Positions 22,958-42,652 of a stretch of 64,000 bases of DNA are shown here, one piece after another. A model generated the notes under the pieces. The model was not told where the DNA came from. It did not search any database and saw only the letters and a program-made list of their open reading frames with translations. Each line of letters opens with the position of its first letter. Within the stretch, counting starts at the first letter, position 1. The translations under genes were made by a program, and so were the position numbers. This stretch comes from Heyndrickxia acidiproducens DSM 23148. Its GTDB lineage: Bacteria; Bacillota; Bacilli; Bacillales; Bacillaceae_C. The stretch spans positions 1-64,000 of the forward strand of contig NZ_KB893979.1 in the NCBI RefSeq assembly GCF_000374345.1, read 5' to 3'.

Positions 22958-25603
22958 GTGGAGCAGCAGGAAACGAGTATGCCAACGAAGTATGATCCCA
23001 AATCGATTGAAGAGGGGCGCTACGAATGGTGGGTGAAAGGCAAATTTTTTGAAGCTAAAGATGACCCGGCAAAACAGCCGTACACGATTGTCATCCCGCC
23101 GCCAAATGTAACCGGGAAACTGCATCTGGGACATGCCTGGGATACAACTTTGCAAGATATTTTAACACGGATGAAACGGATGCAGGGCAGAGACGTGCTG
23201 TGGCTGCCGGGCATGGACCACGCCGGCATTGCTACCCAGGCAAAAGTGGAAGCAAAACTCCGCAGCAAGGGCAAATCCCGTTATGACCTCGGCCGCGAAA
23301 AGTTTGTCGAAGAAACGTGGAAATGGAAAGAAGAATATGCCGGCTTTATCCGCAGGCAATGGGCGAAACTCGGCCTCGGACTCGACTACTCCCGCGAACG
23401 TTTTACGCTTGATGAAGGGTTGTCAAAAGCGGTGAAAGAAGTATTCGTTTCACTGTACAAAAAAGGGCTGATCTATCGCGGTGAATACATCATTAACTGG
23501 GATCCGGCGACAAAGACGGCATTATCCGATATTGAGGTCGTTTACAAAGAGGTGCAGGGTGCATTTTACCACCTCGCTTATCCTTTAAGCGACGGGTCAG
23601 GTACGATAGATATTGCGACAACACGGCCGGAAACAATGCTTGGTGATACGGCTGTCGCTGTCCATCCAAAAGATGAACGGTATCAGCATCTCATCGGCAA
23701 AATGATCATCCTGCCGATCGTCGGCCGTGAAATTCCGATCGTTGCCGATGAATATGTGGATATGGAGTTCGGCTCCGGCGCGGTAAAAATTACGCCTGCC
23801 CATGACCCGAATGACTTTGAAGTCGGCAACCGCCACAATCTTGAACGCATCCTCGTGATGAATGAAGATGGGACGATGAATGAGCGTGCCGGCAAATACG
23901 AAGGCATGGACCGTTTTGAATGCCGCAAGCAGATCGTAAAAGACTTAAAAGATTTAGGCGTTTTGATTAAAATCGAGGATCATATGCACTCGGTCGGCCA
24001 TTCCGAACGCAGCGGCGCTGTTGTTGAACCATACCTTTCCACACAATGGTTTGTGAAAATGCAGCCGCTCGCAGATGCCTCAATAAAAATGCAGCAATCG
24101 GAAGGCAAAGTCCATTTCGTTCCGGACCGTTTTGAAAAGACGTACTTGCACTGGATGGAAAATATCCGCGACTGGTGTATTTCGCGCCAGCTCTGGTGGG
24201 GCCACAGAATTCCGGCCTGGTACCATAAAGAAACCGGCGAAATTTATGTGGATGTCAAGCCGCCGAAAGATCCTGAAAACTGGGAACAGGACCCGGACGT
24301 TTTAGATACATGGTTCAGCTCCGCACTCTGGCCATTTTCGACAATGGGCTGGCCGGACAAAGACGCGAAAGATTATGCGCGCTATTATCCGACCGATGCG
24401 CTTGTTACCGGCTACGACATTATTTTCTTCTGGGTATCACGGATGATCTTCCAAGGGCTTGAGTTTACCGGCAAACGCCCGTTCAAAGATGTACTCATCC
24501 ACGGCTTGGTTCGTGATGAACAGGGCCGGAAAATGAGCAAGTCGCTCGGCAACGGGGTTGACCCGATGGATGTCATTGACAAGTATGGTGCTGATTCCTT
24601 GCGTTACTTCCTGGCAACCGGCAGCTCACCGGGGCAGGATTTGCGCTTCAGCTATGAAAAAGTCGAATCAATTTGGAATTTTGCCAATAAAATATGGAAC
24701 GCGTCCCGCTTTGCATTGATGAACATGAATGGGCTCAAATACGAAGAAATTGATTTAAACGGTGAAAAATCGGTTGCGGACAAATGGATTTTAACCCGTT
24801 TGAATGAAACAATTGATACGGTCACAAAACTTGCAGATAAATATGAATTTGGCGAAGTGGGCCGTGCGTTATACAATTTCATTTGGGACGATTTCTGTGA
24901 CTGGTACATTGAAATGGCGAAACTGCCGCTCTATGGCGACAACGAAGCCGCGAAGAAAACGACGCGCTCGATCCTTGCTTACGTGCTGGACCAGACAATG
25001 AGATTGCTGCATCCGTTCATGCCATTTATTACGGAGGAAATATGGCAGAATCTGCCGCACCAGGGGGAATCGATCACAACGGCTGCCTGGCCGCAAGTGG
25101 ACGACAGCCTTTCCGATTTGGCTGCAAGTGAAGAAATGAAGCTTCTGGTCGAAATCATCCGTTCAGTGCGGAATATCCGAGCTGAAGTCAATACACCATT
25201 AAGCAAAAAGATCAAACTTCATTTAAAAGCGAAGAACGAACAAATTTTAGCAGTACTAAAACGCAACGAAGCATACATCACCCGTTTTTGCAACCCGGAA
25301 GAACTGAAAATGGGGCTTGACCTTGTTGCACCGGACAAAGCCATGACGGCGGTCGTTTCCGGCGTTGAATTGTTCCTGCCGCTCGAAGGCTTGATCAATT
25401 TTGAGGAAGAACTGGCCCGCCTCAAAAAAGAACTGGAAAAATGGAACAAAGAAGTTGAACGTGTCCAGAAGAAACTCGGCAATGAAGGCTTTATGAAAAA
25501 AGCGCCTGAAAAAGTCATTGCCGAAGAACGCGCAAAAGAAAAAGACTATCTTGAAAAATGCAGTATGGTTGAAGCACGCATCAAAGAACTGCAAAACCAG
25601 TAA
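22958..25603 (+). CDS. valS: Valyl-tRNA synthetase
   Basis: 881 aa class I synthetase charging tRNA-Val. The ATP-binding HLGH ([14 protein letters not shown]) and KMSKS ([11 protein letters not shown]) motifs, the CP1 editing domain ([18 protein letters not shown]) and a C-terminal coiled coil ([21 protein letters not shown]...) are present. GTG 22958 is favoured because AAAGGA lies 9 bases before it and the resulting length matches B. subtilis (880). ATG 22949, within that site, is the alternative. It is controlled by the T-box upstream. Confidence 0.96.
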
Positions 25604-25746
25604 AAGCCTGCATGCGCGGCATACGGGAAAGGGGACCTTTTCCGTTGCCGCCATTAATAACCAGGGCTGCCCCAAAAGCCGGCTCATTCTATTGATTCAC
25701 TAAAACTTTTTTTATGACCAATAAGTACATTCCCCGAGCTTGGTTC

Positions 25747-26263
25747 ACGGTGAACTGTCCTGCATAGGGCGTATGAAACTGATGAAGGCCATTGTGAAGA
25801 GTTAAAACAGGTGAGAAGGCGTTCATAAGGCGGATGAAAGCCATTGTAAAGAGAAAATATAGGTGAGAAGGCGTTCATAAGGGCAATGAAAGCTATCTTG
25901 AAGAGAAAAAACAGGCAAACTGTCGTTCATAAGGCGGATGAAAGCCATTGTAAAGAGAAAATATAGGTGAGAAGGCGTTCATAAGGGCAATGAACGCCAT
26001 CTTGAAGAGAAAAGGCAAGGGGAACGGTGTTCAAATGTAAAATAAACCCAAATGAACGCCAATTTAACCAAAAATCCCGGGCCACTTGTTCTTCATCATC
26101 ATGATGAACGCCATTTTCGAGAAAAAAAGGCGGCAAACTGTCGTTCATAAGGCGGATGAACGCCATTGTAAAGAGAAAAAACAGGTGAGAAGGCGTTCAT
26201 AAGGGCAATGAACGCCATCTTGAAGAGAAAAAACAGGTGAGATGTCGTTCATAAGATAGATAA
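25747..26263. repeat. Tandem array of about 52-bp hairpin repeats between valS and folC
   Basis: Clear 52-bp units at 25809-25860, 25861-25912, 25913-25964, 25965-26016 and 26183-26234, a slightly longer unit at about 26129-26182, a divergent longer one at 26017-26128, and partial ends. Each unit is built on an inverted repeat GGCGTTCAT-(7 nt)-ATGAACGCC or a decayed form, followed by an A-rich GAGAAAA linker. Two unit types alternate (AAGGCGG-ATGAA..CCATTGTAAAG and AAGGGCA-ATGAA..CCATCTTGAAG), giving a 104-bp higher-order period. Nothing else coding lies in 25604-26340. Confidence 0.9.
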
Positions 26264-26340
26264 ATTGCCAGACTGCCTGGCAGCGGGGATTCTTTGCCGG
26301 CTTTTGGCCCAGCTTTTACATATAAGGGGGATTGGACATC

Positions 26341-27645
26341 ATGATACAAACATATGAAGCAGCCGTTGACTGGATTCAATCGCGACTGAAATTCGGGATC
26401 AAACCGGGGCTGGAAAGAATGCAGTGGCTGATGGCGAAATTAAACCATCCTGAGCGGAGAATGAAAACGATTCATGTTGCCGGTACAAACGGAAAAGGGT
26501 CAACGGTTTGCTATTTACGCAATATTTTGCAGCAGGCCGGGTTTACAGTTGGAACGTTTACTTCCCCGTATATTGAGCAGTTTAACGAAAGAATCAGCAT
26601 CAATGGTATACCGGTTGGCGATACGGAACTTGTACTTCTGGTGAACCGTATTCGTCCATTAACAGAAGAACTGGAGCAAACGGAACTCGGGTCGCCGACA
26701 GAATTCGAAGTGATCACAGCGATGTCGCTTTATTATTTTGCCGATGTCCACCCGGTTGACTTTGTCATTTATGAAGTTGGTCTCGGCGGCAGGCTTGATT
26801 CAACAAACGTGATCACCCCGCTTATCAGCCTGATTACAAATATCGGGCATGACCATATGAAGATACTGGGGAACACAATTGCCGAGATTGCCTGCGAAAA
26901 AGCGGGCATTATCAAAGCGGGCATTCCCGTTATCACAACAGCCATGCAAAAAGAAGCGGTTGACGTCATAAAAAACAAAGCAACGGTAAAACAGGCACCC
27001 CTTTACCGGATTGGGGATGATTTTTCAGTGGCCAACCATCAGCCGCTTGCCAATGGCGAAATGTTCACCCTGATAAATCAACAGCAAAACATCGAAAACC
27101 TCTTGATTTCAATGAACGGACAGCACCAGGTCTATAATGCTGCTTTAGCTGTGATGGGCGCATTGCAGTTGGAAAGCCGTTATCAAATTCCTATCGGGCA
27201 GGAAGCAATCCGGGAAGGCTTGAAAAACAGTAAATGGATCGGACGCTTTGAACAGCTGATTGAAAAACCGCGCGTCATAATCGACGGCGCCCACAACCCG
27301 GAAGGCATCGACAGCCTGATTGAAACCATGAAAACCCATCTGCAAGGGAAAAAAATCCGCATGGTCTTCTCAGCCTTGGGTGATAAAGATTTGCAGCATA
27401 TGATTCCAAAATTAGACCAAGTGGCGGACAGCATTGTATTTACAACTTTTGATTTTCCAAGAGCCATTCCGGCGAAAGCATTGTATAATAGGAGTGGACA
27501 TCCTCATAAGAGTTTTAGCGAAAATTGGCAGGCCGTTTTGAAACAGACAATGGCTGATATCAATGAAGACGAGGTTTTAGTTATTACGGGTTCATTATAC
27601 TTTATCTCGCAAGTCCGGAAATGGGTGTTTCATACTTACGCGTAA
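26341..27645 (+). CDS. folC: Folylpolyglutamate synthase / dihydrofolate synthase
   Basis: 434 aa. Adds glutamates to folate and, in the bifunctional form, makes dihydrofolate from dihydropteroate. Mur-ligase fold: P-loop GTNGKGSTV, SPYIEQFNERI, GLGGRLDSTNV, the Mg-binding NIGHDHMKILGNT and the ligand-binding DGAHNPEG are visible. ATG 26341 is 10 bases after AAGGGGG; the TTG at 26332 sits too near that site. A terminator follows, so the pilus genes have separate transcription. Confidence 0.95.
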   Translation: MIQTYEAAVDWIQSRLKFGIKPGLERMQWLMAKLNHPERRMKTIHVAGTNGKGSTVCYLRNILQQAGFTVGTFTSPYIEQFNERISINGIPVGDTELVLLVNRIRPLTEELEQTELGSPTEFEVITAMSLYYFADVHPVDFVIYEVGLGGRLDSTNVITPLISLITNIGHDHMKILGNTIAEIACEKAGIIKAGIPVITTAMQKEAVDVIKNKATVKQAPLYRIGDDFSVANHQPLANGEMFTLINQQQNIENLLISMNGQHQVYNAALAVMGALQLESRYQIPIGQEAIREGLKNSKWIGRFEQLIEKPRVIIDGAHNPEGIDSLIETMKTHLQGKKIRMVFSALGDKDLQHMIPKLDQVADSIVFTTFDFPRAIPAKALYNRSGHPHKSFSENWQAVLKQTMADINEDEVLVITGSLYFISQVRKWVFHTYA

Positions 27646-27666
27646 AATGATTTAATTACATAGGCA

Positions 27667-27726
27667 GAGGCTGTTCTGCTTTCTTATACGCAGAGTGTTC
27701 TGTATCATGAACAGCTCTCTTTTTTA
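27667..27726 (+). terminator. Terminator after folC
   Basis: GAGGCTGTTC pairs with GAACAGCTCTC, with a second TCTGC/GCAGA pairing in the loop, followed by TTTTTT. Confidence 0.85.
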
Positions 27727-27822
27727 TCCACAAGATGGGCCTTTTGTCATGGGAAATACGGCCTTTTGGTGGATGATTCATGCAAATTTCACGATCAACT
27801 GTCTGCTTATTGGAGGTTTCCG

Positions 27823-28236
27823 ATGAAACAACTTATCTTAAAAAGCCGTGGTTTTACGCTTGTTGAAGTTTTATTGTCGATTACGATCCTTGGAATGGTG
27901 ATACTTGTTGCAGGCTCGGTTTTGGCCAATCATGCTGGCCATACGAGAATGGCGGAAGAAAAATTGTCAGGCATCCAACTGGCAAACAGCATTTTAAGAG
28001 CTTATCAGAAAAAGAGTTTCTCAGAAATTGAGGCAAAAGTGGGTACAACGGAAACCGTTGATATCAAAAGTCTGCTCGGAACGGATGCTGCAGAAGTGTC
28101 ATATTTTACCGCGATGGCAACCATTTCTAAGCCGGCTGACAGCAGATTATCCAACCGCCTGCTGCTTGTCAAAATCACTGTGAAAAGCAGTAGAGACCAG
28201 CAAACGGATGAAGTGGAAGGATATGTCAAACAATGA
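27823..28236 (+). CDS. Type IV prepilin-like minor pilin (PilV/GspI type)
   Basis: 137 aa. Short basic leader MKQLILKSRG is followed by FTLVEVLLSITILGMVIL: the prepilin peptidase site after Gly10, Phe+1 and Glu+5, then the hydrophobic N-terminal helix that packs into the pilus core. The rest is a small globular domain with no recognised family. Size and first place in an I-J-K-like trio suggest a GspI/PilV role. TTGGAGGTTTCCG precedes ATG 27823. This is the first gene of the pilus locus; no clear promoter was seen in the 96 bp after the folC terminator. Confidence 0.85.
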   Translation: MKQLILKSRGFTLVEVLLSITILGMVILVAGSVLANHAGHTRMAEEKLSGIQLANSILRAYQKKSFSEIEAKVGTTETVDIKSLLGTDAAEVSYFTAMATISKPADSRLSNRLLLVKITVKSSRDQQTDEVEGYVKQ

Positions 28237-28757
28237 GGGTACAGAATGAAAGAGGGGTAACTTTAGTTGAATTACTGGCAGCCATTTTCATTTCGTTCCT
28301 TATTATTGGCGGAATTTATGCCGTTTTTATAAACTTGGTGAAGCAATCTGAAGCAGATTTAAGCAAAAAAAATTTGGTAATCGAACAGACGGCGATTCTA
28401 AAAAATATGAACAGGGCGATGGAAAATGTTGACCAGGTGGAAGTTTCCGGTGATGAGGATGCTAATGGCACTTTTACAAGTTTCATAGCAATTGATCATA
28501 AAATGGTCGAACAAAATGGCGGCCGATCTTACACAACAAAAAAAACAAGTATCCCAATCACGACGACAAATGGCAACTTGAGCATTGATGGTATGATCAT
28601 CAACAGCGATCATGTTTCATTGGACCATACGGCTTTTAAACTGGACAAAGACATTCTGCAATGCCATTTTGTCATAAAAGATAAAAAACACGATCAGATC
28701 AAAAAACTGTTTGTTTCTTACCAATTATCCGGCCGATCACCGGATGAGGGGGATTAG
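28233..28757 (+). CDS. Type IV prepilin-like minor pilin (PilW/GspJ type)
   Basis: 174 aa. Leader MRVQNERG, then VTLVELLAAIFISFLIIGG with cleavage after Gly8 and Glu+5. The C-terminal part is predicted beta-rich (VEVSGDEDANGTFTSF, KTSIPITTTNGNLSIDG). It overlaps the previous gene by 4 bp (ATGA). Length and order agree with a GspJ/PilW-like subunit of the pilus-initiating tip complex. The assignment within the pilin classes is an inference. Confidence 0.82.
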   Translation: MRVQNERGVTLVELLAAIFISFLIIGGIYAVFINLVKQSEADLSKKNLVIEQTAILKNMNRAMENVDQVEVSGDEDANGTFTSFIAIDHKMVEQNGGRSYTTKKTSIPITTTNGNLSIDGMIINSDHVSLDHTAFKLDKDILQCHFVIKDKKHDQIKKLFVSYQLSGRSPDEGD

Positions 28758-28760
28758 CTT

Positions 28761-30338
28761 ATGAAATGGTTGAAGGATGAAAAAGGTTATACGCTTGTCA
28801 CCGTACTATTGATCCTTGCTGTTGTTTCCGTTATTTCGGTCAGCCTGATGACGGCATCCTATTCCTCTTTTAAAGCCGCCAAATCAGCGGAAACCGATAC
28901 GCAGGATAAATTGAAAGCGGAAAGAGTGGTAGATGAGGTAACGGCCATGATCGAAAATGATCTGGAAACGATTAACACCCGGATCAGCAGCAGTTCCATG
29001 ACATCAAGCGAGCTGCTCACAAATCTTCATAATGACCTCAACAGCATTGCTTCAGAAAAACAATCGGATTGTACCCTTACTTATAAAACATTACAAGATG
29101 GTACAAATGCTGACGGGACCAATCCCAACGGTTCAATAACAGTGAAGGTTGTAATTGAAGTGCCTGTTGGAAACGCGCGGAAAACGCTGAAAAAAGTAAT
29201 GACCTTGTCGACGATATCGGATGTATTTCAGTACACAGTTGTAACCCCGGGTAATCTTATTTTATACGGAGCGCCATACATAGAAGGGGATGTAAATGTT
29301 GGAGGAGATTTGTACTCCAGTAATTATGCAACATATGTGTTTGGTTTACCCGAGACAAAGAAAACTTCCTTTCCTGCGATTAACGGGAATTTGACGACAA
29401 GAGGAAAATATTACAGCTTTGATACTTCGCTATCAGAATGCAGGGCATTTACAGTTGGAGAAATAGCAAAACATTTCTCTGTTGTTCCGACTGTTAAAAC
29501 CAGGCAATTGATCATTGATACAATTGATGTTGGCAAAACAATTGATGATCATACCCTGTCATGGCCAAGGGATCATTTTGTAAACCAAAAACAATCAATT
29601 TCGGGGACTTATACGTACCCGGGGAGTGTCTTCCTTGACTCATTAACCATAAAGCGCAATGCCAAGGTAACTGTTGAAGGAGACTTGTATATAAGCGGGA
29701 GTCTGAGCTGTTATGGCTCACTGACTGTTTCCGGAAACATTTACGTAGGTGGAGAAGCAACGTTAAGCGGAACCGTTACACTCTTAAATTCCAGTAAATA
29801 TATTTATCTTGCTAACAATGCCGAATTAAGCGCGCTGAATTTAAATGGCGTCATGTATATTAACCATTCGGCAACATTAACCGATGATGTTAATACGAAC
29901 GGCAGTATTTATGCACGCAGCAGCATTACGGCCCAAAACTTTTCCAATCATGATGGTACACTCATTTTACTCTGTGATGGAAATATAACAATCTCTAATA
30001 ATAACGAATTTGAAGACGATCCTAAAGTTATGAACGCCTACTTTTATTCGAATAGCGAGCTATTTATTTACGGGGTTGGTTCAAATATCAGAATAAATGG
30101 CGGAATTTATGGAAATCCAATAAAATTAAGTGCTACGAAAGGGACAACTTACGAAAGATGGTGGCTGTTAATCCATTATTTGGATTTCCAGGATAATCAG
30201 GATTCTATTGATGCGAACAAATCCAGACTGTCTATTTATTTTAAAAAAAACCTTGTTCTAAACCCGCCAAAGGGCATCCCGACAGTCAACAAAGTGTCCT
30301 TAACGGAAATAGACACCTCTTATGTGGATAGCCACTGA
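28761..30338 (+). CDS. Large PilX/GspK-like pilin with a beta-solenoid head
   Basis: 525 aa. Leader MKWLKDEKG and YTLVTVLLILAVVSVISVSL form a prepilin N-terminus, but +5 is Thr, not Glu; lack of Glu5 is a mark of GspK-type tip pseudopilins. After a helical stalk (to about 150) come repeated short strands with Gly turns (YIEGDVNVGGDLY, then INGNLTTRG, VEGDLYISGS, YGSLTVSGNIYVGGEATL, MYINHSATLTDD) at about 170-215 and 285-410, resembling a right-handed beta-helix of the bactofilin-like kind. A unique C-terminal region (about 410-525) follows. Expected at the pilus tip, outside the cell. It lies 3 bp after the previous gene. Confidence 0.8.
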   Translation: MKWLKDEKGYTLVTVLLILAVVSVISVSLMTASYSSFKAAKSAETDTQDKLKAERVVDEVTAMIENDLETINTRISSSSMTSSELLTNLHNDLNSIASEKQSDCTLTYKTLQDGTNADGTNPNGSITVKVVIEVPVGNARKTLKKVMTLSTISDVFQYTVVTPGNLILYGAPYIEGDVNVGGDLYSSNYATYVFGLPETKKTSFPAINGNLTTRGKYYSFDTSLSECRAFTVGEIAKHFSVVPTVKTRQLIIDTIDVGKTIDDHTLSWPRDHFVNQKQSISGTYTYPGSVFLDSLTIKRNAKVTVEGDLYISGSLSCYGSLTVSGNIYVGGEATLSGTVTLLNSSKYIYLANNAELSALNLNGVMYINHSATLTDDVNTNGSIYARSSITAQNFSNHDGTLILLCDGNITISNNNEFEDDPKVMNAYFYSNSELFIYGVGSNIRINGGIYGNPIKLSATKGTTYERWWLLIHYLDFQDNQDSIDANKSRLSIYFKKNLVLNPPKGIPTVNKVSLTEIDTSYVDSH

Positions 30339-30469
30339 AATTTCCAAAAACAAATGGAACAATCTTCCCAAGCAGGGAGATTTATACTACAATAGTCTTA
30401 GCCATATTTCGACGATTTTAGTGCTTTTTTACTAGAATACGTTCTGAAACAATAGAAAGAGTTGAGAAA

Positions 30470-31237
30470 ATGGATCTGCTTACATTAGGTGTTTCCGTGA
30501 TTGCTTTTTTAATTGTTTTGGTTATCCTGTTTGTTTTTCCTTTCTGCTTTACCAAAAAAGGGATTATTTTACTGGTTTCAACTTCTTTTTTGCTTGCGCT
30601 TTTCAGCTTGGTGGCGAACAGCGTGCTGCCTCTATGGGAAAGCAGCCTGATTACTTTTCTTTTGGTGCTTTGCTGCTCCTATCTGCTGGAGAAAAGAATC
30701 CCGTTTTTGTTTGCAGAGACAGATCATACCCCGAATGTATTGCCGGGTATGAACGGGCAGGAAACATTACTTGCGCAGCCTCCAGCGAAACCGGCTATGA
30801 CAGAACCTGAAGTTTTTGAAAATTTGAATGCGGGCGCGGGGAAGACGGTCTCGCAAGCTGGCGGATCAGAAGGACAAACTCCAGTGGCGGCTTTTAAAGA
30901 AAAAGCCGAACCGGTGCCGGACTGGGAAGAAATTAAAGAACCTGCTTCTGCAGCCAATACGGAAAAAAGAAAAGCTGAAGGAAAGGAAACCGATTCGGAC
31001 GATTTCTCATTTTCCCAGGCGGATAAAGACGAAATCAGCTTTCTGGAGGACCGGCTGTCATTCGTTGATGATGATATGCACGCCGGGCAGGCAGAAAAAG
31101 AAGCGGATCAGGAAACGATACCGATTGAAGACTGGATCATGGCATTGGAAAATCCGGATACATCTTTGCCGGACACCCATTCTGTAAAAGAACCCGCAGG
31201 AAAAAACTGTGCAAAAGATAAGGAAAGGCAGGGGTGA
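30470..31237 (+). CDS. Acidic membrane protein of unknown function in the pilus locus
   Basis: 255 aa. Three hydrophobic segments at about residues 4-28, 30-50 and 58-75 (LGVSVIAFLIVLVILFVFPF; KKGIILLVSTSFLLALFSLV; SSLITFLLVLCCSYLL) are followed by about 175 residues rich in Glu, Asp, Ala and Pro with no recognised domain. AAAGAGTTGAG precedes ATG 30470. The 131-bp gap before it is the largest break in the first half of the locus and could hold a promoter, but none is clear. I do not recognise the family. The position suggests a pilus accessory or assembly role. Confidence 0.72.
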   Translation: MDLLTLGVSVIAFLIVLVILFVFPFCFTKKGIILLVSTSFLLALFSLVANSVLPLWESSLITFLLVLCCSYLLEKRIPFLFAETDHTPNVLPGMNGQETLLAQPPAKPAMTEPEVFENLNAGAGKTVSQAGGSEGQTPVAAFKEKAEPVPDWEEIKEPASAANTEKRKAEGKETDSDDFSFSQADKDEISFLEDRLSFVDDDMHAGQAEKEADQETIPIEDWIMALENPDTSLPDTHSVKEPAGKNCAKDKERQG

Positions 31238-31240
31238 AGT

Positions 31241-32632
31241 GTGGGAAACAACCGCTTTGTAAAAGTGTTTATAGTCCTGTTTACGAGTACAGCTTTTATA
31301 TTAGGTTTCTCACATTTCGGGGTTCTTGCATTGGAAAAAGGTTTCGGGCATGCGGCCCAACTTTCTAATGGCACATCTGCCGGAGGAGTCAGCCTGTCCG
31401 GAATGGAAAAAGACAAGGCCGGGCAAAAACTGGAAAATGCTGTGCAAAACTGGAAATCGTCCCATCCCATTATGATTACCTATTTGAACCATTCTGCAAA
31501 GCTTCCGGCCGATCGCTTACAGTTTGATATAAAGGAAACCCTGAAACACATACGGGATGGCGGTTCAACACCGCTTTTTGTAACATTGAACAACCGCGTG
31601 CTAATGAATGTGCTTTCGAAAGCTTTCCCGGCAATCAGCCTTGAAGACTGGAATATTGATCGTTTAAATGCGGATATCTGCAAAGCGGCTGCCCGCCTGG
31701 AAACTGGAAAAACCAGTTTTGATCTGTCAGCTTACACGCTGTCGGACCAAACGGAAAAAGTTGTCTCCAAAGCAACGTTAACTAGTATTCCTGCAGCAGA
31801 CCGGTATGAATTGGAAACCTGGGTGAAAGAATTTCCAAAACTGAATATCCCTGCAGCGTCTTCGTTTTCTTTATTAAAAACTGCAGGGGAAACCGGCTCC
31901 TATTTTTCCAATACAGCGCTTAGTATCGTTGCCAGCGCCATTTACGAAGCGGTGCTGCCGACAAACTTTGAATGCATTGAAAGGTATACAAGTAGCGAAC
32001 TGCCAGGCTATGCCACACCTGGAAAGGAAGCACGGGTTGTGCAGGATAAACTGGATTTTGCTTTTATCAACCCGAACCACTCGGCCTATACCTTGCAGTT
32101 TGCCTATAAAAACGGAGCATTAACTGTTTCTGTAACCGGCCGGCCTTTTGCGGAAAAATATAAAATCATCTCTAAAAATGCCCAGACCATTGAACCGAAA
32201 ACAGCTGTCCACTACACCAGCACATTAACGGCAAAACAGTCCGTTGTGCTGCAGTACGGAAAAACCGGGCACTATGTGAAAATCTACCGGAATGTATACA
32301 GCCGGCACAACAGCCTGCTGAAATCCGTTCCTGTATCAGAAGATTTTTATCCGGCTGTATCTGAAATTATTGCAAAAGGTTACCCGGAAGAGGACAATTC
32401 GGGTGCGGAGGATGAAACAGATGCAAACGCGTCCGGTGATTCAAAAACTTCCGGAAACGCATCATCAACAGATCAAAACCGTTCAACAGAATCGAACGAA
32501 TCTACAGCTGATGGGCAAACCGGTGCTGCACAGCCCGGCAGTTCAGCCGGCAAAAATGCGCCTTCAAACAGCAAGGATTCAAATGATAACAGCAGGACGG
32601 CAAATTCAGGCAGCACTAACAACGAGAGCTGA
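31241..32632 (+). CDS. VanW-family protein with wall-linker-like tail in the pilus locus
   Basis: 463 aa. An N-terminal membrane anchor (about 7-30) is followed by a domain resembling the peptidoglycan-binding module of VanW/YoaR proteins (GVSLSGMEKDKAGQKLENAV) and then a VanW-like core (about 205-310: FSLLKTAGE, ALSIVASAIYEAVLPTNFEC, ERYTSSELPGYATPGKEARV, LDFAFINPNHSAYTLQF). The last 80 residues are almost wholly Ser/Asn/Thr/Asp/Gly, like a cell-wall-spanning linker. GTG 31241 follows AGGGGTGAA. VanW proteins lack a settled function. A role in letting the pilus cross or attach to peptidoglycan is my inference. Confidence 0.75.
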   Translation: MGNNRFVKVFIVLFTSTAFILGFSHFGVLALEKGFGHAAQLSNGTSAGGVSLSGMEKDKAGQKLENAVQNWKSSHPIMITYLNHSAKLPADRLQFDIKETLKHIRDGGSTPLFVTLNNRVLMNVLSKAFPAISLEDWNIDRLNADICKAAARLETGKTSFDLSAYTLSDQTEKVVSKATLTSIPAADRYELETWVKEFPKLNIPAASSFSLLKTAGETGSYFSNTALSIVASAIYEAVLPTNFECIERYTSSELPGYATPGKEARVVQDKLDFAFINPNHSAYTLQFAYKNGALTVSVTGRPFAEKYKIISKNAQTIEPKTAVHYTSTLTAKQSVVLQYGKTGHYVKIYRNVYSRHNSLLKSVPVSEDFYPAVSEIIAKGYPEEDNSGAEDETDANASGDSKTSGNASSTDQNRSTESNESTADGQTGAAQPGSSAGKNAPSNSKDSNDNSRTANSGSTNNES

Positions 32633-32709
32633 TCTGCAGTGGCGGGCTACGGGAATGAAAGTGATTGAAACTGGCACATCTAACATGAAGCAAAAAGCGG
32701 GGAATCAAA

Positions 32710-34371
32710 ATGAAACAAGTACGGAAACGGCTCGGGGATCTATTGATTGAGTCAGGCTTGATTACAGAAGAACAATTACAGCAGGCCCTGAAGGAAAAAG
32801 AGGCAGGCCAGAAGCTGGGTGATGTACTTCTAAAGCACGGTTACATCACCGAGCAGCAGCTGATCGAAGCGCTTGAATTCCAGTTGGGCATTCCGCATAT
32901 CAGTCTGTATCGCTATCCTTTTGACCAGAACATCATGAACCTTGTACCGAAAGAAATGGCAAAAAGAAACCTGCTGATTCCGCTGAAAAAAGACGGAGAC
33001 CAATTATTTGTTGCAATGGCGGACCCGATGGATTTTAATGCAATTGATGATCTGAGGCTGTCGACCGGCTTCCGGATTGAACCGGCCATTGCGTCAAAAG
33101 ATGATATTTTGCGCGCAATCAGTAAGTACTACGACCTGAATGACGGTGTTAAAGACATTTTAAATGACATTGTTGAAAACGAAGAAACGGCAGCTGTTCC
33201 GGCAGGCGATGATGATTCCCCGGTCGTGCAGCTTGTGAACCAGATCCTGCAAACTGCTGTCCAACAACGGGCGAGCGATATCCATCTCGACCCGCAGGAA
33301 ACAAGTTTTATTGTCCGCTACCGCGTTGATGGGATTTTGCGGACAGAACGGGTGCTGCCCAAGCATATGCAAAATGTACTGACGGCACGCATCAAAATCA
33401 TGGCGAATCTCGATATAACAGAGCACCGCATACCGCTTGACGGGCGGATCAAGATTGACCTGGATTTTCATCCGGTCGATATCAGGGTTTCCACGCTGCC
33501 AACGATTTACGGGGAAAAAATCGTGTTGCGGATTCTTGATCTGACAAGTGCAATCAACGATATCCGCCAGCTTGATTTTAACAAATTGAATTTACAGCGT
33601 TTTTCACAGTTGATCCAGCGTCCGAACGGGATTGTCCTGATTACAGGGCCGACCGGTTCAGGGAAATCATCCACATTATATGCGGCTTTGAACCATCTGA
33701 ACAGCGAACAAGTGAACATCATTACCATTGAAGATCCGGTTGAATACCAGCTTGAAGGCATCAACCAGATCCAGGTTAATAATTCAGTCGGGATGACATT
33801 TGGCAAGGGGTTGCGGGCAATATTGCGGCAGGATCCGAATATTATTATGGTCGGGGAAATCCGCGACAAAGAGACTGCTGAAATTGCCGTCCGCGCCTCG
33901 CTGACCGGCCATCTTGTCTTGAGCACGCTGCACACGAATGATGCACTCGGCACCATTACGAGATTAATAGATATGGGGGTCGAGCCCTTCCTTGTTGCAG
34001 CATCATTAAGCGGGGTCGTTTCCCAGCGGCTCGTGCGCAAGGTGTGCCGCGACTGCGCAGAAGAACAGGAACCGACCAAACGGGAGGCCGAAATTTTTGC
34101 AAGGCGCGGCATGAAAGTTGAAAAAATTATGCGCGGGCGCGGCTGCGGCAACTGCAATATGACCGGTTATAAAGGCAGAATGGCGATCCAGGAACTGCTG
34201 GTGATTAATGATCATATCCGGCGCGGTATTATGAATGGGGAGCCGCTTTCGAAACTCAGGGAGTATGCCGTCCATCATAAAACGATTTTCCTGCTGGATG
34301 ACGGATTATTAAAAGTGAAACAGGGCTTTACGACGACAGAAGAAATTTTGCGCGTGGCCCTGGCGGAGTAG
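32710..34371 (+). CDS. pilB: Type IV pilus extension ATPase PilB
   Basis: 553 aa GspE/PilB ATPase that powers pilin polymerisation from the cytoplasm. Contains an N-terminal MshEN/GspE-N domain (RLGDLLIESGLITEEQL, 6-140), Walker A GPTGSGKS (313-320), Asp box ITIEDPVEYQ (339-347), Walker B VGEIRDKETAEIA, His box LSTLHTNDA, and the zinc tetracysteine C446, C449, C479, C482. This is a full pilus ATPase, unlike the short ComGA of competence systems, which lacks the N-terminal module. AGCGGGGAATCAAA precedes the ATG. pilT begins right after its stop. Confidence 0.95.
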   Translation: MKQVRKRLGDLLIESGLITEEQLQQALKEKEAGQKLGDVLLKHGYITEQQLIEALEFQLGIPHISLYRYPFDQNIMNLVPKEMAKRNLLIPLKKDGDQLFVAMADPMDFNAIDDLRLSTGFRIEPAIASKDDILRAISKYYDLNDGVKDILNDIVENEETAAVPAGDDDSPVVQLVNQILQTAVQQRASDIHLDPQETSFIVRYRVDGILRTERVLPKHMQNVLTARIKIMANLDITEHRIPLDGRIKIDLDFHPVDIRVSTLPTIYGEKIVLRILDLTSAINDIRQLDFNKLNLQRFSQLIQRPNGIVLITGPTGSGKSSTLYAALNHLNSEQVNIITIEDPVEYQLEGINQIQVNNSVGMTFGKGLRAILRQDPNIIMVGEIRDKETAEIAVRASLTGHLVLSTLHTNDALGTITRLIDMGVEPFLVAASLSGVVSQRLVRKVCRDCAEEQEPTKREAEIFARRGMKVEKIMRGRGCGNCNMTGYKGRMAIQELLVINDHIRRGIMNGEPLSKLREYAVHHKTIFLLDDGLLKVKQGFTTTEEILRVALAE

Positions 34372-34380
34372 GTGAATAGA

Positions 34381-35433
34381 ATGAAAGAAAAAATCGAATA
34401 TCTGCTGCGCGCGGCTTTTGAACTAAAAGCCTCGGATCTTCATTTGACCGTCGGTGTGCCGCCGATTATGCGCTTGAACGGGCAATTGAAGCGATATGGA
34501 AAAGAGCCGATGACACCGCAATTGACAGCAGGCATGGCAAAAGCGATCATTTCGGAAACGATGTGGCCTGCATTTTTGGAACGGGGGGAGATTGATTTTT
34601 CATACGGCATTCCGGGCGTGTCACGTTTCCGGATTAATGCCTACCGCCAGCGCAATTGTATTTCACTGGCGATCCGCGTCGTGCCAACAAGAATTCCCAC
34701 GGTTGAGGAACTGCATCTGCCGCCGGTTTTGTACACTTTTACGGAAAAACCGCAGGGCCTCATTCTTGTAACTGGCCCGACCGGCAGCGGCAAGTCTACC
34801 ACACTCGCTGCCATGATCGACCATATGAACAAAACAATGCATAAGCATATCATTACACTCGAAGACCCGATTGAATATTTACATAAACACCAAAATTGTA
34901 TCATTGACCAGCGTGAAGTGGGGTTTGACACGCAGAATTTTGCAAACGGGCTGCGTGCGGCGCTGCGCCAGGATCCGGATGTGATTTTAGTCGGTGAGAT
35001 GCGTGATTTGGAAACGATTCACACGGCAATTACAGCCGCGGAAACCGGCCATCTCGTGCTCGGGACGCTGCATACGTCAAGCGCGCCGTCCACCATCGAC
35101 CGGATCATTGATGTATTTCCGCCGTCCCAGCAGCCGCAAATCCGTATTCAGCTGGCATCTGTTTTGGTCAGTATCATTTCGCAGCGGCTTTTCCCGACAC
35201 CAGATCAAAAGGGGCGCCGGGCCGCAACAGAAATTTTGGTGAATAATCCGGCGGTTGCAAATCTGATCCGCAATGAAAAAATCCATCAGATTGTGAACGT
35301 TTTGCAGACAAGCCGCGCCCTCGGCATGCATACGCTGGAAACCGATGTGAAGGATTTGCTGCACAGCGGTGCGATTTCAAAAGAAGCGGCAGAACCTTAT
35401 TTACTGGAGATTGTTCAAAATGCCACGATTTAA
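34381..35433 (+). CDS. pilT: Pilus retraction ATPase PilT
   Basis: 350 aa hexameric ATPase that disassembles the pilus, giving twitching motility and DNA pulling. Starts MKEKIEYLLRAAFELKASDLHL. Walker A GPTGSGKS is at 132-139, Asp box ITLEDPIEYLH, Walker B VGEMRDLETIHTA, His box LGTLHTSSA. The PilT-type C-terminal block ILVNNPAVANLIRNEKIHQI matches the AIRNLIRE-type retraction signature. AGGTG overlaps the pilB stop; the GTG at 34372 is too close to be the start. Its presence predicts retractile pili. Confidence 0.95.
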   Translation: MKEKIEYLLRAAFELKASDLHLTVGVPPIMRLNGQLKRYGKEPMTPQLTAGMAKAIISETMWPAFLERGEIDFSYGIPGVSRFRINAYRQRNCISLAIRVVPTRIPTVEELHLPPVLYTFTEKPQGLILVTGPTGSGKSTTLAAMIDHMNKTMHKHIITLEDPIEYLHKHQNCIIDQREVGFDTQNFANGLRAALRQDPDVILVGEMRDLETIHTAITAAETGHLVLGTLHTSSAPSTIDRIIDVFPPSQQPQIRIQLASVLVSIISQRLFPTPDQKGRRAATEILVNNPAVANLIRNEKIHQIVNVLQTSRALGMHTLETDVKDLLHSGAISKEAAEPYLLEIVQNATI

Positions 35434-36625
35434 ATACCAGGGAAGAAATAAAACCGGCAGAAAAAACGGCACCATCACCGCAGACTCCAAACGGGATGCA
35501 ATTTTAAAATTGCACGAACAGGGCATCCGCGTTTTGCAGGCGGATGAGCTCCCCGAAACGCTGATGACGATGGAAATCAGCCTTGGCAATCATGTCAAGC
35601 TCCAGGATTTTGTGATTTTTCTGCGCCAGTTCTCGACGCTCCTGAAAGCCGGTGTCACGGTTGTCGATTCGACAAGCATTCTGGCCAGCCAAACGAGCAG
35701 CAAAACACTCAGAAAAACGCTTTTGGAAGTCGAAGAGGACCTGCGCGGCGGAATCGCGTTGTCGCAGGCGGCCGCGAAGCATAAAAAAGTGTTTACAACG
35801 ATGTTTATCAATATGGTCTATGCCGGTGAAGCAAGCGGCAGTCTGGATGACACATTGGAACGCCTTGCCACTTATTACGAGAAGCAGCACCGCACCCGGC
35901 AGAAAGTTAAATCAGCGCTGACATATCCCGCGTTTGTCGGAGTGATGTCGATTGCGGTTGTGATTTTTATGCTGATTAAAGTAGTGCCCACTTTTGTTTC
36001 CATGTTAAAAGATTATAATGCACAGCTTCCTGCAGTCACGCGTTTTGTGCTGGCGGCGAGCGGCTTTATGCAGCAGTACTGGTGGCTGATCCTTTTGCTG
36101 GCCACCGGTCTGTATCTGCTGCTCGTGATCATGCGGAAAAATCAGGCGGCCAAGTATTATTTGGATTATGCGCTATTAAAAATTCCCGTATTCGGCAAGC
36201 TCGTTCAAAAATCGTTAATCGCCCGCATGACGCGGACGTTAAGTTCCCTTTTTTCCAGTTCAGTGCCGATTTTGCAGGCATTATCGATCGTCGCGAAGAT
36301 TGTTGAAAACGAAGTCATTTCAAAAGTGATCCGTGAATCAAGAGATGCGTTAGAAAAAGGGCAGTCAATGACTGATCCGATGCGGCGCCACTGGGTATTT
36401 CCGCCGCTTGTGACACAGATGATTGCGATCGGTGAAGAAACCGGCGCGCTTGACGGGATGCTTTCAAAAGTCGCAGATTTTTACGAAGCCGAGGTGGAAG
36501 CGGCAACCGACCAGTTAAAAGCACTGGTTGAGCCGTTTATGATCATCATCCTCGCGGGGCTGGTCGGAACCATCATCGCGTCGATCATGATCCCCATGTT
36601 TGAAATTTATAATAATGTTCAATAA
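35420..36625 (+). CDS. pilC: Type IV pilus platform protein PilC
   Basis: 401 aa GspF/PilC inner-membrane platform that couples the ATPases to the pilin. Two tandem GspF domains (residues about 65-190 and 270-395; FLRQFSTLLKAGVTVVDSTS.. and MTRTLSSLFSSSVPILQALS..) and three membrane helices (about 165-190, 215-235, 370-395) are visible. It begins 14 bp inside pilT, so the pair is translationally coupled. It ends 70 bp before the major pilin. Confidence 0.95.
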   Translation: MPRFKYQGRNKTGRKNGTITADSKRDAILKLHEQGIRVLQADELPETLMTMEISLGNHVKLQDFVIFLRQFSTLLKAGVTVVDSTSILASQTSSKTLRKTLLEVEEDLRGGIALSQAAAKHKKVFTTMFINMVYAGEASGSLDDTLERLATYYEKQHRTRQKVKSALTYPAFVGVMSIAVVIFMLIKVVPTFVSMLKDYNAQLPAVTRFVLAASGFMQQYWWLILLLATGLYLLLVIMRKNQAAKYYLDYALLKIPVFGKLVQKSLIARMTRTLSSLFSSSVPILQALSIVAKIVENEVISKVIRESRDALEKGQSMTDPMRRHWVFPPLVTQMIAIGEETGALDGMLSKVADFYEAEVEAATDQLKALVEPFMIIILAGLVGTIIASIMIPMFEIYNNVQ

Positions 36626-36652
36626 AGTGAACAAAAAAATGGAAAAATCATG

Positions 36653-36658
36653 TATAAT
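36653..36658 (+). promoter_or_regulatory. Possible -10 element before the major pilin gene
   Basis: A perfect TATAAT lies 39 bp before pilA, in the only longer gap of this part of the operon. No good -35 lies at 16-18 bp, so an extra pilin promoter is suggested but not proven. Confidence 0.4.
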
Positions 36659-36696
36659 AATATAGGTAAAATGATCTAGGACAAATGGAGGGGAAC

Positions 36697-37164
36697 ATGT
36701 TGGAAAAGAAACACAAGTTATTAAAAAGTCAAAAAGGTTTTACATTAATTGAATTGCTGGCAGTGATTGTCATTTTGGCGATTATTGCAGCAATTGCGGT
36801 TCCGGCAATTGGGAATGTCATTAAACATTCGCGTATTGATGCTGTTAAAGCGGATGCTATACAAGTACTGAATGGGGCAAAATTGTATGTTGCTGGTAGT
36901 TCCCTTGAATTTGGTGAAAGTAACACAATTACTTTGAAAAAAGCTCAATTGGAACCTTATCTAGATGATGAAGCCGGTAAGTTAACTTCTTATTCTGTAA
37001 CTGTAACGAACAACAATAATAAATATACTTATACAATTACTGGAAAAGGTAAATATGGGTCTAAAGGTGACGAAACAGTTACATTTAAAAATGCTAGTTT
37101 GAAAGCAATTAGTAATGCCGGTAAAGGAGATACAAGAATTACGCCAGCCGATGCCGGAAAGTAA
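36697..37164 (+). CDS. pilA: Major type IV pilin
   Basis: 155 aa. Leader of 14 residues (MLEKKHKLLKSQKG), then FTLIELLAVIVILAIIAAIA with Glu+5, the classic type IVa N-terminus; mature length about 141. The C-terminal domain is Thr/Asn/Lys-rich and beta-prone (SYSVTVTNNNNKYTYTITG) with no cysteine, so no disulfide D-loop. It is visibly more A/T-rich than neighbours. TGGAGGGGAAC precedes ATG 36697. A strong hairpin follows (37251-37283) that may favour pilin mRNA over downstream genes. The name rests on sequence type and position. Confidence 0.88.
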   Translation: MLEKKHKLLKSQKGFTLIELLAVIVILAIIAAIAVPAIGNVIKHSRIDAVKADAIQVLNGAKLYVAGSSLEFGESNTITLKKAQLEPYLDDEAGKLTSYSVTVTNNNNKYTYTITGKGKYGSKGDETVTFKNASLKAISNAGKGDTRITPADAGK

Positions 37165-37250
37165 AAATTACTACGCTTTTATCATTTTATCGGTATCCAT
37201 ATTCTTATGAGCAGATGTAAGTTTATTGAATTAACGTTTGTTCTCCGAAT

Positions 37251-37283
37251 GTAAGGTCTGCCCCCAACTGGGCCAGGCCTTAC
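37251..37283 (+). terminator. Intra-operon hairpin between pilA and pilM
   Basis: GTAAGGTCTGCCCC pairs with GGGCCAGGCCTTAC (one mismatch, one G-U) around a small AACT loop, ending 38 bp before pilM. There is no T-run, so a partial terminator or 3' stabilising structure for the abundant pilin mRNA is more likely than full termination. Confidence 0.65.
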
Positions 37284-37321
37284 ATACTAATTTGCTAGAT
37301 TTCAGTTAAGGAGCATTCCCA

Positions 37322-38323
37322 ATGGCATTCTCATTTCTACCATCTACCAAAAAAATCGGTAATATCATCATCAAAGATCATGTCGTCCGCTATCTTGAAC
37401 TGAGACAGGCCAATCCGCCTGTAATCCAGAAGTTTGGGGAACATGATCTTCCGGAAGGGCTTATCCGTGACGGAAAGATTGCCGATGCAGAGACACTTGC
37501 GATGATTATGGAAGAATGCCTCGATGATTGGGGGGTGAAACGGGGAAAGCACCCGATCCGTTTCACCATCCCTGATCATTATGTGATTGTGCGCAAGGTG
37601 GCGATTCCTAAAGAAGTCGCTGTTGATGAAATCGAAGGATATATTTACATCGAACTTGGCTCCACGATCCATCTGCCATTTGAAGATCCGGTATTTGACT
37701 ACACATTCCTGTCCCAAACCGGTAATGAAAAGCAAATTCTCTTATTTGCTGCGCCCGAAGTGATCGTCCGCGAGTATGTGGATTTTTTTAACGGGTTCCA
37801 TCTCAATCCGGTTGCTGCCGATCTCTCCCCTTTATGTGTTTACCGCGCTTTTTATCATTTGAATGCTATTAACCCGGCGGACCATATCCTGCTGCTGCAG
37901 TTTGATTTAACGGCGGTGAATGCTGCGGTTTTTCATCAGCACTACCCGTTTCTTACGAGAGAGATAGAGATTGATTTGCCGGTTTCTAAATGGGAATCCA
38001 GTACCGATGCTTTCGGGGAGAAAAAGTACCGCTGGCCGGAAAAAGATCCAACCCTGCGGTACGAAATCGTGAATCTCATGAAAGAACTGGACAGGATCGT
38101 CAATTATTACCAGTTTTCGATACGGCAGGGCAAGGCCAAAATCACTAAAATTTTACTGAATGGCGATTATCCGTATTTGTCTAAAATGGAACACGATTTA
38201 ACGGAACAAATCGGCCTGCCGGTTGAAACGCTCCGGACGGAAATGGTTTCAACGTCTGCAGGCGCAGGATTTTCCGCACGCTATGCACCTGTTTTGGGGC
38301 TGGCGCTGAAAGAGGTGAACTAG
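37322..38323 (+). CDS. pilM: PilM, actin-like pilus assembly ATPase
   Basis: 333 aa cytoplasmic actin-fold protein that binds the N-terminus of PilN and links the ATPase to the membrane alignment complex. The actin-like pieces are diverged but the order fits PilM (IGNIIIKDHVVRYLEL, IPKEVAVDEIEGYIYIELGS, LLLQFDLTAVNAAVF phosphate-2-like, LNGDYPYLSKMEHDL adenosine-like). TAAGGAGCATTCCC precedes the ATG. pilN starts directly at its stop. Confidence 0.88.
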   Translation: MAFSFLPSTKKIGNIIIKDHVVRYLELRQANPPVIQKFGEHDLPEGLIRDGKIADAETLAMIMEECLDDWGVKRGKHPIRFTIPDHYVIVRKVAIPKEVAVDEIEGYIYIELGSTIHLPFEDPVFDYTFLSQTGNEKQILLFAAPEVIVREYVDFFNGFHLNPVAADLSPLCVYRAFYHLNAINPADHILLLQFDLTAVNAAVFHQHYPFLTREIEIDLPVSKWESSTDAFGEKKYRWPEKDPTLRYEIVNLMKELDRIVNYYQFSIRQGKAKITKILLNGDYPYLSKMEHDLTEQIGLPVETLRTEMVSTSAGAGFSARYAPVLGLALKEVN

Positions 38324-39100
38324 ATGCTGGTTGACATTAATCTGCTGCCGAAAAAAGAGCTGAAAAATATTGCGCTTCTCTTTTGGGGAGGTATTTTAAT
38401 CGTTGCTGTCATTATTTTTCTGATTGTCTTCTATTTCGCGCTCCATGCCGCAAAGCAGGAACTGGACAGCACCAGCCAAAAGATCAGGCAGGTTGAATCC
38501 GCGCAGGCAATAGAACAGGCAAAACAAAAGAGCAATACGAACGCGCAGGATTTGCAAAAACTCGAGGCAGCCGTGAACTGGGCAAACGACTATCCGGTAA
38601 AAGCGGTGCCAATTCTGGAACAGCTCACAACATTACTTCCCAAATACGGCTACATCCGGCAATTTTCCTGCTCGGAAACCAGCGCAGAAGCCACCATCCA
38701 ATTCGATTCAAATGATGAGGCTGCATATTATCTGAAACGTTTAAATGACAGCAAATACTTCAGCGATGCTGTCCTCACCAGCATCCAAACGGAAGAAATG
38801 CAAAGCGGAGCGGCTTCAAATTCCGGGACGCCAGCTGCAAATACAAAAGCAGCTTCGGAAACGAAAACGGCTGCACAATCCGCTTCAAATACCAGAGCAA
38901 ACCCGGATGGCCCGAAAAATTCAGAAACCTCATCCGGCATCAGCTCCGATGCAAACGCAAGTACAGCTTCGTCATCAAATACAGATGCCGCCGTTTCTGC
39001 AGGCTCAAGCCATATACTGCCGGTTTATTTAGCCAGCTATACGATGCAGCTGAATAAAGATGCGCTCAACGCGGCGGAAAAGGAGGAGAAAAATAATTGA
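38324..39100 (+). CDS. pilN: PilN, pilus alignment membrane protein
   Basis: 258 aa. MLVDINLLPKKE contains the INLLP motif that docks into PilM. One membrane helix (about 17-40, IALLFWGGILIVAVIIFLIV), then a coiled coil and a small alpha/beta domain (to about 155). Residues about 160-230 are a Ser/Ala/Thr/Asn-rich low-complexity stretch, then a short ordered end (ILPVYLASYTMQLNKDA). The long linker is unlike Gram-negative PilN. It starts the base after the pilM stop. Confidence 0.9.
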   Translation: MLVDINLLPKKELKNIALLFWGGILIVAVIIFLIVFYFALHAAKQELDSTSQKIRQVESAQAIEQAKQKSNTNAQDLQKLEAAVNWANDYPVKAVPILEQLTTLLPKYGYIRQFSCSETSAEATIQFDSNDEAAYYLKRLNDSKYFSDAVLTSIQTEEMQSGAASNSGTPAANTKAASETKTAAQSASNTRANPDGPKNSETSSGISSDANASTASSSNTDAAVSAGSSHILPVYLASYTMQLNKDALNAAEKEEKNN

Positions 39101-39852
39101 ACCTCCGATTGAATCAAAAACAGATGATCCTTATGATTTCCCTGCTGCTCGTCTGCATTGCCGGTGCGGCTGCCCTGTACTGGTATGTGCTGGCGCCGGT
39201 AAAAACCGAAACGGCAACGAAAAAGTCTACTTTAAAGTCGGAACAGCAGGTGCTCTCGTCTTTGCAGTCCCGTGAGCAGGAGAATCCGGATATGCAGTTG
39301 GCCACGATTGTAAACCTGTTGAAAAAAGTGCCGGCAGAACCGCTGACAGAACAATTTCTGCTTGACTTTCAAATGGCAGAGTCTCTTTCAGACAGTTTAA
39401 TAACCGAAACGGAATACAATCAGGAGGCAGATTCGGATAGCGGTTCATCGTCTGCCGGCCAATCTCAAGGCACGCAAAATAAGCAGCCCGCATCATCAGA
39501 AACAGCAGCTGCCGCGTTGCCGTCCGGCATAAAAAAACTGACCTACACGTTAACAGTAGCGTCACCGGACTATAAAAGCATGACCACTTTTTTAAAAACG
39601 ATTGAAAACCTTTCACGGATTACGGCGATTGAGTCGATTGATTTTAATCAGTCTGAAGATACAGGCGCCGCTTCAAGCAGCAGCACGGCGTCTGATGCAA
39701 GTTTGAAATATACTGTGACGGTTTCCACCTTTTATGATCCGCAATTAAGCCATTATGCCGATTATTTGCCGGAGATTATGGTGCCGTCGCCAAGCCATAA
39801 GCGTGATCCGGTTTCCGGCCAACACACCCGAGCGGCTGATGCCTTGCAATAA
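39097..39852 (+). CDS. pilO: PilO, pilus alignment membrane protein
   Basis: 251 aa. One membrane helix near the N-terminus (about 10-30, MILMISLLLVCIAGAAALYW), a coiled coil, then a ferredoxin-like fold interrupted by a Ser/Gln/Ala-rich insert (about 108-145). The strands KLTYTLTVASPDYKSMTTFLKTIENLSRITAIESI are typical of the PilO core. Partner of PilN. TTG 39097 overlaps the pilN stop; the site is AAAAGGAGGA. Confidence 0.87.
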   Translation: MNLRLNQKQMILMISLLLVCIAGAAALYWYVLAPVKTETATKKSTLKSEQQVLSSLQSREQENPDMQLATIVNLLKKVPAEPLTEQFLLDFQMAESLSDSLITETEYNQEADSDSGSSSAGQSQGTQNKQPASSETAAAALPSGIKKLTYTLTVASPDYKSMTTFLKTIENLSRITAIESIDFNQSEDTGAASSSSTASDASLKYTVTVSTFYDPQLSHYADYLPEIMVPSPSHKRDPVSGQHTRAADALQ

Positions 39853-39918
39853 GTGAATGGAATCGACGGGAAAACCGGTCATATAGTATAAACAAGCTGA
39901 TGAATGGGAGGGATGCGT

Positions 39919-40680: not shown

Positions 40681-40833
40681 TAGAAAAACAGACTCTTTCT
40701 GCGGCTGCAAAAAAGCCTCCGCTTATTGGCGGAAAATGCCGGAAAACAGCGAATTCCTTTTCCAACAAGGCGACAAAAGTCTTGTTCTTTTTTTTGCAAA
40801 TTATGTTAGCATAAAGCAAATCGGGGGCGAGAG

Positions 40834-41832: not shown

Positions 41833-41883
41833 TATTCTTTCTATCTTTCTTTAACTGCAGAGCGGATATTGGAATTTTAATTG

Positions 41884-41927: not shown

Positions 41928-41968
41928 CGCGCTGTAAAAAAATTTTGGCAAAAGGTTTTCAAATGTGA

Positions 41969-42629: not shown

Positions 42630-42652
42630 CCGCAAAAAAGGAGGAAACCCAT

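Follow-up and report, generated by a model that had tools for sequence, protein, structure and literature searches.

Which protein sits at the tip of a type IV pilus in the Bacillales, and what might it present there? These questions are raised by a prepilin gene, here called the solenoid pilin gene, in a 64,000-nucleotide stretch of Heyndrickxia acidiproducens DSM 23148 (contig NZ_KB893979.1) that was analysed as a whole and is referred to as the window. Our analysis suggests that the product is probably a GspK/PilX-type tip subunit, which caps a complex of minor pilins and presents a solenoid adhesin on a retractable type IV pilus of the Bacillales. The features on which this reading draws are listed in Table 1.

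The open reading frame, the prepilin start and the Thr at +5 can all be read from the sequence, as the first-pass annotation had claimed. The ORF is preceded by GGGGG, and a gap of 3 bases separates its start from the stop of the upstream prepilin gene. The N-terminus is MKWLKDEKG followed by YTLVTVLLILAVV, and the run of EKG and then YTLVTVLL places Thr at mature +5. This Thr is conserved in all 4 homologues of the genus. Glu at mature +5 is found in 0 of the 47 family loci; the residue is Thr in 23, Leu in 10, Asn in 4, Val in 4, Ile in 2, Ser in 2, Phe in 1 and Met in 1. The Gly-turn strands quoted in the first-pass annotation (EGDLYISGS, SGNIYVGG and NGSIYARS) occur as well. Their motif, G-x-[ILVM]-Y-[ILVAG], is present 5 times in residues 160-460, twice at a spacing of 18 residues, against a mean of 0.17 and a maximum of 3 in 20,000 shuffles. 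The enrichment of the motif exceeds chance.

The solenoid pilin gene is the third in a run of prepilin genes, after those at 27823 and 28233 (both Glu5). The protein of 27823 scores below the cut-offs of the PilV and GspI profiles, and the 42 aligned orthologues match PilV in 35 cases, ComGE in 34 and GspI in 21 (E<=1e-3). The GspJ identity of the second trio gene is weak, with 1 match among 42 aligned orthologues. The trio is placed between valS-folC (valS named by sight, folC from its Mur ligase domains) and the genes of a membrane protein, a VanW/G5 protein and the pil machinery. With PilB, PilT, PilC, PilM, PilN, PilD and prepilins among its products, the cluster is a type IV pilus (pil) locus that includes the ATPase for retraction. 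The gene at 39097 owes its name, PilO, to its position only; its product matches no family at E<=1e-3. Pil operons in Bacillales, including Geobacillus and Bacillus sp. NRRL B-14911, were reported earlier (PMC3244431), and a Paenibacillus pil cluster with an MshEN-containing PilB has been studied (PMC9765702). On another contig (C6) the same genome carries comG-like genes: first one that resembles ComGB (23% identity to PilC, E 1.2e-12), then prepilin-like matches and ComGF above cut-off. Rfam gave zero families above the gathering score in 25500-43500, and promoter-like and terminator-like sites in 27500-33000 are at chance level (11 against 10.2 and 8 against 6.1). A tandem array with a 52-nt unit, also readable as 104 nt, lies between valS and folC (25781-26255).

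Table 1. Features of the solenoid pilin gene and of the surrounding pil locus (positions in the window; residues refer to the solenoid pilin)
Feature	Position	Strand	Basis or remark
Solenoid pilin gene	28761-30338	+	525-aa ORF; probable GspK/PilX-type tip pilin, beta-solenoid predicted to be inserted
Prepilin leader, residues 1-9, Gly9 last	28761-28787	+	sequence; Gly9 invariant (47-row alignment)
Long pilin helix alpha1, residues 10-77, Thr at +5	28788-28991	+	models; N-terminal half partly pLDDT <50
Three pilin-sheet strands, residues 105-152	29073-29216	+	DSSP 105-113, 126-136, 141-152; equivalents in second model
Predicted beta-solenoid head, residues 153-497	29217-30251	+	range aligned to ice-binding solenoids
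Last long strand, residues 511-523, proposed closer of pilin sheet	30291-30329	+	DSSP, both models; low pLDDT
First minor prepilin of trio, PilV/GspI-like, Glu5	27823-28236	+	ORF, ATG at 27823; N_methyl above cut-off
Second minor prepilin of trio, PilW/GspJ position, Glu5	28233-28757	+	ORF; N_methyl above cut-off
Membrane protein	30470-31237	+	adjoins trio in many relatives; no family assigned
VanW/G5 protein	31241-32632	+	Pfam VanW and G5 above cut-off; adjoins trio in many relatives
PilB-type extension ATPase with MshEN (c-di-GMP-binding)	32710-34371	+	T2SSE and MshEN above cut-off; NF053729 motif above cut-off
PilT retraction ATPase	34372-35433	+	TIGR01420 above cut-off
PilC platform protein	35417-36625	+	T2SSF above cut-off
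Likely major pilin PilA	36694-37164	+	N_methyl and TIGR02532 above cut-off; 'major' inferred
PilM, PilN, PilO-positioned and PilD genes	37322-40680	+	PilM_2, PilN, A24_N_bact and Peptidase_A24 above cut-off

The gene is not a one-off. An 8-row profile was used for a search of the genomes of the order; 209 of 397 match at E<=1e-4, and about 110 of the 397, counted by hand, give strong matches (E<=1e-20). In a sample of the phylum 60 of 398 genomes match at E<=1e-4, and the best match outside the class is partial (E 5e-11). From the strong matches 47 homologue loci (7 and 40, with the window uncounted) were picked across family codes, a non-random choice; L102-L105 repeat the genes of four of the 47 and were dropped before counting. 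A scan of genome contigs with the single sequence gave zero matches, and a scan with an alignment returned the four genus homologues and a weak archaeal match (L106). The latter, at 4371-4616 in a Methanomicrobiales MAG, is 30% identical to head residues 301-384, perhaps through no more than a shared solenoid repeat.

Sequence tools show that the trio and its location are conserved across this family. Glu5 is present in the nearest upstream prepilin at all 47 loci, and in the second at all 42 where it was recognised, the other 5 loci having one recognised prepilin. Pil-side genes lie beside 45 of the 47 loci, folC or valS beside 38, and at least one of the two kinds beside all 47. Within the protein, residues 396-460 at the end of the solenoid are the most conserved (2.38 bits per column, versus 1.02 for 278-340). 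The stretch between two head landmarks ranges from 230 to 450 residues (CV 0.16), and lengths vary less in the N-terminal part (147-200, CV 0.09) and in the C-terminal tail (32-42, CV 0.06). One locus, L130, has a second pilV/pilW-like pair beyond the solenoid pilin gene. PilM was tried as a marker of co-occurrence and dropped; PF11104 matches 336 of the 397 genomes as well as 6 of the 14 controls, among which are B. subtilis and E. coli, and is therefore too unspecific to carry a claim of co-occurrence.

Existing family models hardly cover these proteins. The best Pfam or NCBIfam model matches at most 3 of 47 members (window included, E<=1e-3), the counts being PilX_N 3, bactofilin 3, GspK 2, and DUF7305, ComGG and MinC 1 each. 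For the window protein, the best family for the N-terminus is NCBIfam GspK (E 1.9e-4, 21.1 bits against a cut-off of 130), PilX_N reaches 21.6 bits against a cut-off of 25.5, and DUF7305 (PF23981) gives zero matches at E<=1. The GspK/PilX-like N-terminus without Glu5 that had been proposed therefore stands for the absent Glu5 and the third position in the run, whereas its profile scores fall below the curated cut-offs. For this reason we regard the protein as a functional counterpart of GspK/PilX and not as a filed member of either family. The bactofilin-like head of the first-pass annotation was rejected as the best description. PF04519 scores 15.1 bits against a cut-off of 27.9 (E 0.028), and further bactofilin matches are weak (2n3d at E 0.31 with the family profile against PDB sequences; 6ria at E 1.5 with Foldseek and the second model). 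Ice-binding solenoids give higher and longer matches, and the best folds are those of ComZ and DUF3494.

The solenoid and its insertion point are predictions from AlphaFold2 models of the window protein and of its H. ginsengihumi homologue. Both models rest on the same five-sequence alignment and are thus not fully independent. The window model has a mean pLDDT of 73.8 and a pTM of 0.68 (five AlphaFold models spanning 58.6 to 73.8), and the homologue's has a mean pLDDT of 73.1 and a pTM of 0.63 (53.8 to 73.1). Both agree in the order of their elements: one helix ends at residue 77 and another follows it, three strands reach 152, numerous short ones run up to about 458, and a final long strand occupies 511-523 (window numbering). 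In the head, block means of pLDDT are 82 to 96 in 281-380 and low at 190-201 and 460-480. The parallel beta-helix that had been foreseen is present in both models, which match known beta-solenoids with best Z scores of 15.2 and 13.8. The higher value belongs to the window model, in which DUF3494 ice-binding solenoids superimpose at 2.5 Å over 175 residues; for the H. ginsengihumi model the figures are Z 13.8 and 2.7 Å over 175 residues. The modelled head shares the solenoid fold of DUF3494 proteins, which does not imply that it binds ice. A viral fold library gave zero matches at E<=0.001. The tapirins of Caldicellulosiruptor, which are linked to cellulose and to pili, share a solenoid with these models (4WA0, 6N2B and 6N2C; Z 9.7 and 9.6 with the second model, 8.9 with the window model). 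They differ in being C-terminal domains of adhesins, and many unrelated solenoids score similarly.

Over its whole length, the window model finds its best structural match in ComZ of Thermus thermophilus (6QVI). ComZ is the top Foldseek match (E 8.3e-4, TM-scores about 0.2, rmsd 16.8). VIA-align superimposes it on 316 residues of the window model, between 39 and 525 (Z 14.2, rmsd 12.8 Å), and on 305 residues of the H. ginsengihumi model, between 47 and 560 (Z 12.3, rmsd 9.3 Å), and the alignments extend to the C-terminus of both. ComZ is absent among the 50 Foldseek matches listed for the H. ginsengihumi model. The large rmsd and the TM-scores of about 0.2 mean that the domain arrangement of ComZ is not reproduced, or that the arrangement in the model is wrong. 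Together with the DUF3494 matches, the ComZ matches place the modelled head among solenoids of the ComZ/ice-binding kind. In the models the solenoid is predicted to be an insert between the third sheet strand and the last C-terminal strand, which is the strand order of ComZ. Both modules of the proposed pilin-solenoid architecture are supported, but the head does not simply follow the pilin, because the models place a strand, of low confidence, after it. The first-pass annotation would have abandoned its reading for a fold without a beta-helix or for homologues characterised as non-pilus proteins; neither was found.

The ComZ paper describes a solenoid between the penultimate and last strands, models the protein at the pilus tip and names an ice-binding protein as the nearest solenoid fold (PMC6561018). 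Our protein resembles ComZ in pairing a pilin-like domain with a large solenoid of the ice-binding type, predicted here to precede the last strand, in its proposed tip location, and in the GspI-like pilin encoded alongside (PilA2 for ComZ). It differs in that ComZ belongs to the competence pilus of a diderm, whereas the present family is encoded in the pil locus of monoderms in which comG-like genes occur as well. The two domains are arranged differently in the models. A profile of the 47 family rows run against PDB sequences does not return ComZ at E<=10, and we therefore say that the protein may work like ComZ, not that it is ComZ. A beta-solenoid tip pilin is already known from Thermus (PMC6561018), and what is described here is a widespread, unnamed family of the Bacillales. 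A literature search of titles and abstract starts found no described Bacillus example, in line with the earlier claim, and no account of this Bacillales family. GspK/PilX (PilK) proteins are likewise without Glu5, are encoded after an I-like and another Glu5 prepilin, and carry a large insert in the pilin fold. The reported GspK insert is alpha-helical and lies at another place (PMC6561018), and the profile scores here are below cut-off. A profile comparison (hhalign) with PilX_N proteins from other genera in the order (L030-L037) gives 99.4% over residues 2-224, which take in the pilin module and the solenoid's first turns. The rest of their head does not align, and the window protein is set apart by its lack of a DUF7305 match and its PilX_N score below cut-off. 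Three of these proteins were scanned, and all three have DUF7305 above cut-off; at the locus L032 there are two copies of the PilX_N protein. PilB and PilC of Streptococcus sanguinis offer another parallel, as minor pilins that carry a bulky functional module, probably at the tip; their modules are of the vWA or lectin type and sit at the C-terminus instead of being an inserted solenoid (PMC8179133). Modular pilins are described as widespread (PMC8179133), and one paper groups GspK, CofB and ComZ as tip adhesins (PMC9556784).

How might such a protein work? PilD would process all three prepilins of the trio, cleaving the solenoid prepilin after Gly9. Because it lacks Glu5, the mature protein would need no subunit above it and could occupy the top of the complex, consistent with a review in which the subunit without Glu5 caps tip complexes (PMC10191384) and with a model of the monoderm Com pilus in which four minor pilins form the cap (PMC12153270). 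There it would cap a complex with its two Glu5-bearing neighbours and may help to start assembly. The tip-type location claimed at the outset remains the best inference from the missing Glu5, the gene position and the pil locus. The predicted solenoid would project from the tip and may bind a surface or a polymer, and retraction by PilT would then pull on this attachment. Through MshEN, extension of the pilus may answer to c-di-GMP.

Other roles have to be weighed against that of a tip adhesin. The predicted topology is the same as that of ComZ, a DNA binder, and Clostridioides difficile, also Gram-positive, is reported to bind extracellular DNA via minor pilins (PMC9556784). The solenoid pilin could therefore be a tip DNA receptor that serves DNA uptake or the retention of extracellular DNA in biofilms. 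We consider this unlikely. The comG-like genes elsewhere in the genome make a role in DNA uptake less probable, and there is no sequence match to ComZ at the threshold above. The head is acidic (pI 5.3 in the window protein; over 51 heads, which include four duplicates, the median is 4.7 and the values run from 4.1 to 9.1), a weak point since ComZ is also described as having no positive patch. An equally improbable role is that of a mainly structural cap or initiator, whose solenoid either has no ligand of its own or docks, for example, the VanW/G5 product. The solenoid end being the most conserved segment would suit it, as would the VanW/G5 and membrane-protein genes that adjoin the trio in many loci, but the variable length of the head stretch suits a binding module better. 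The GspK match at the N-terminus, far below cut-off as it is, also brings to mind a secretion-type filament, with the protein as a pseudopilin for the recognition of secreted proteins. This is very unlikely, since the same cluster encodes PilT, which has been used to separate type IV pili from type II secretion (PMC9765702).

The history of the trio differs from that of its surroundings. In a tree built from 47 rows of the solenoid pilin, the genus of the window groups (100, starred) with rows of six other family codes, f2, f7, f30, f37, f39 and f43, and apart from G001 and G005, which belong to its own family. Trees of the two trio partners, with 42 rows each, recover these 11 rows as a clade (99 in both). 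A grouping of the rows of this trio clade is rejected by folC with 10 of them among 38 rows (p 0.0036), by pilB with 9 among 22 (p 4.9e-6) and 6 among 19 (p 3.3e-4), and by pilT with 9 among 22 (p 2.8e-10). These p values are optimistic, as the groups were chosen after the first tree had been seen. The pilB and pilT tests were run without L130, a long branch, and L119 has no usable PilB; the trees are quick ones, three branches in the one for folC are long (L132, L110 and L116), and the VanW tree is too poorly resolved for use. Pairs that share a family code are also torn apart by the solenoid pilin tree (f30, p 3e-13; f43, p 3e-5), whereas folC keeps the f30 pair together (92, not starred) and does not reject the f43 pair (p 0.59). 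Holding f1 together is rejected by the solenoid pilin (PilX) tree (p 1.3e-62) and weakly by folC (p 0.035), so that f1 is no clean yardstick.

The direction of the trio relative to the pil-side genes varies as well: it is opposite in 37 of the 47 loci, the same in 8 and undetermined in 2, and the tree asks for at least four changes of orientation, with rows that have no pil-side gene set by hand. Co-directional trios are found in the genus of the window, in L114-L116 and in L141-L142, and 27823-30338 can be compared with L110, L119 and L144. Because the trio clade conflicts with folC, pilB and pilT, the three genes seem to share, as a unit, a history of their own at a site that stays fixed. 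This conflict, which is new here, suggests that whole tip cassettes have been exchanged at that site. We give a little less than an even chance to the proposal that Bacillales swap tip cassettes at the folC side of the pil locus, with the tip complex and head refitted and the motor unchanged. In the same tentative sense, at not quite even chances, the trio may come in two deeply separated versions, each moved and inverted as a whole with the machinery left in place. Ancient duplication with loss could also have produced such a pattern.

Our analysis bears on the tip subunit of monoderm type IV pili and on its target, and the family provides a concrete tip candidate. Since one recognisable architecture is frequent in the Bacillales, it gives such a candidate in species like Heyndrickxia coagulans. 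If the exchange of cassettes is true, natural tip variants on unchanged machinery would separate the jobs of the tip complex from those of the motor.
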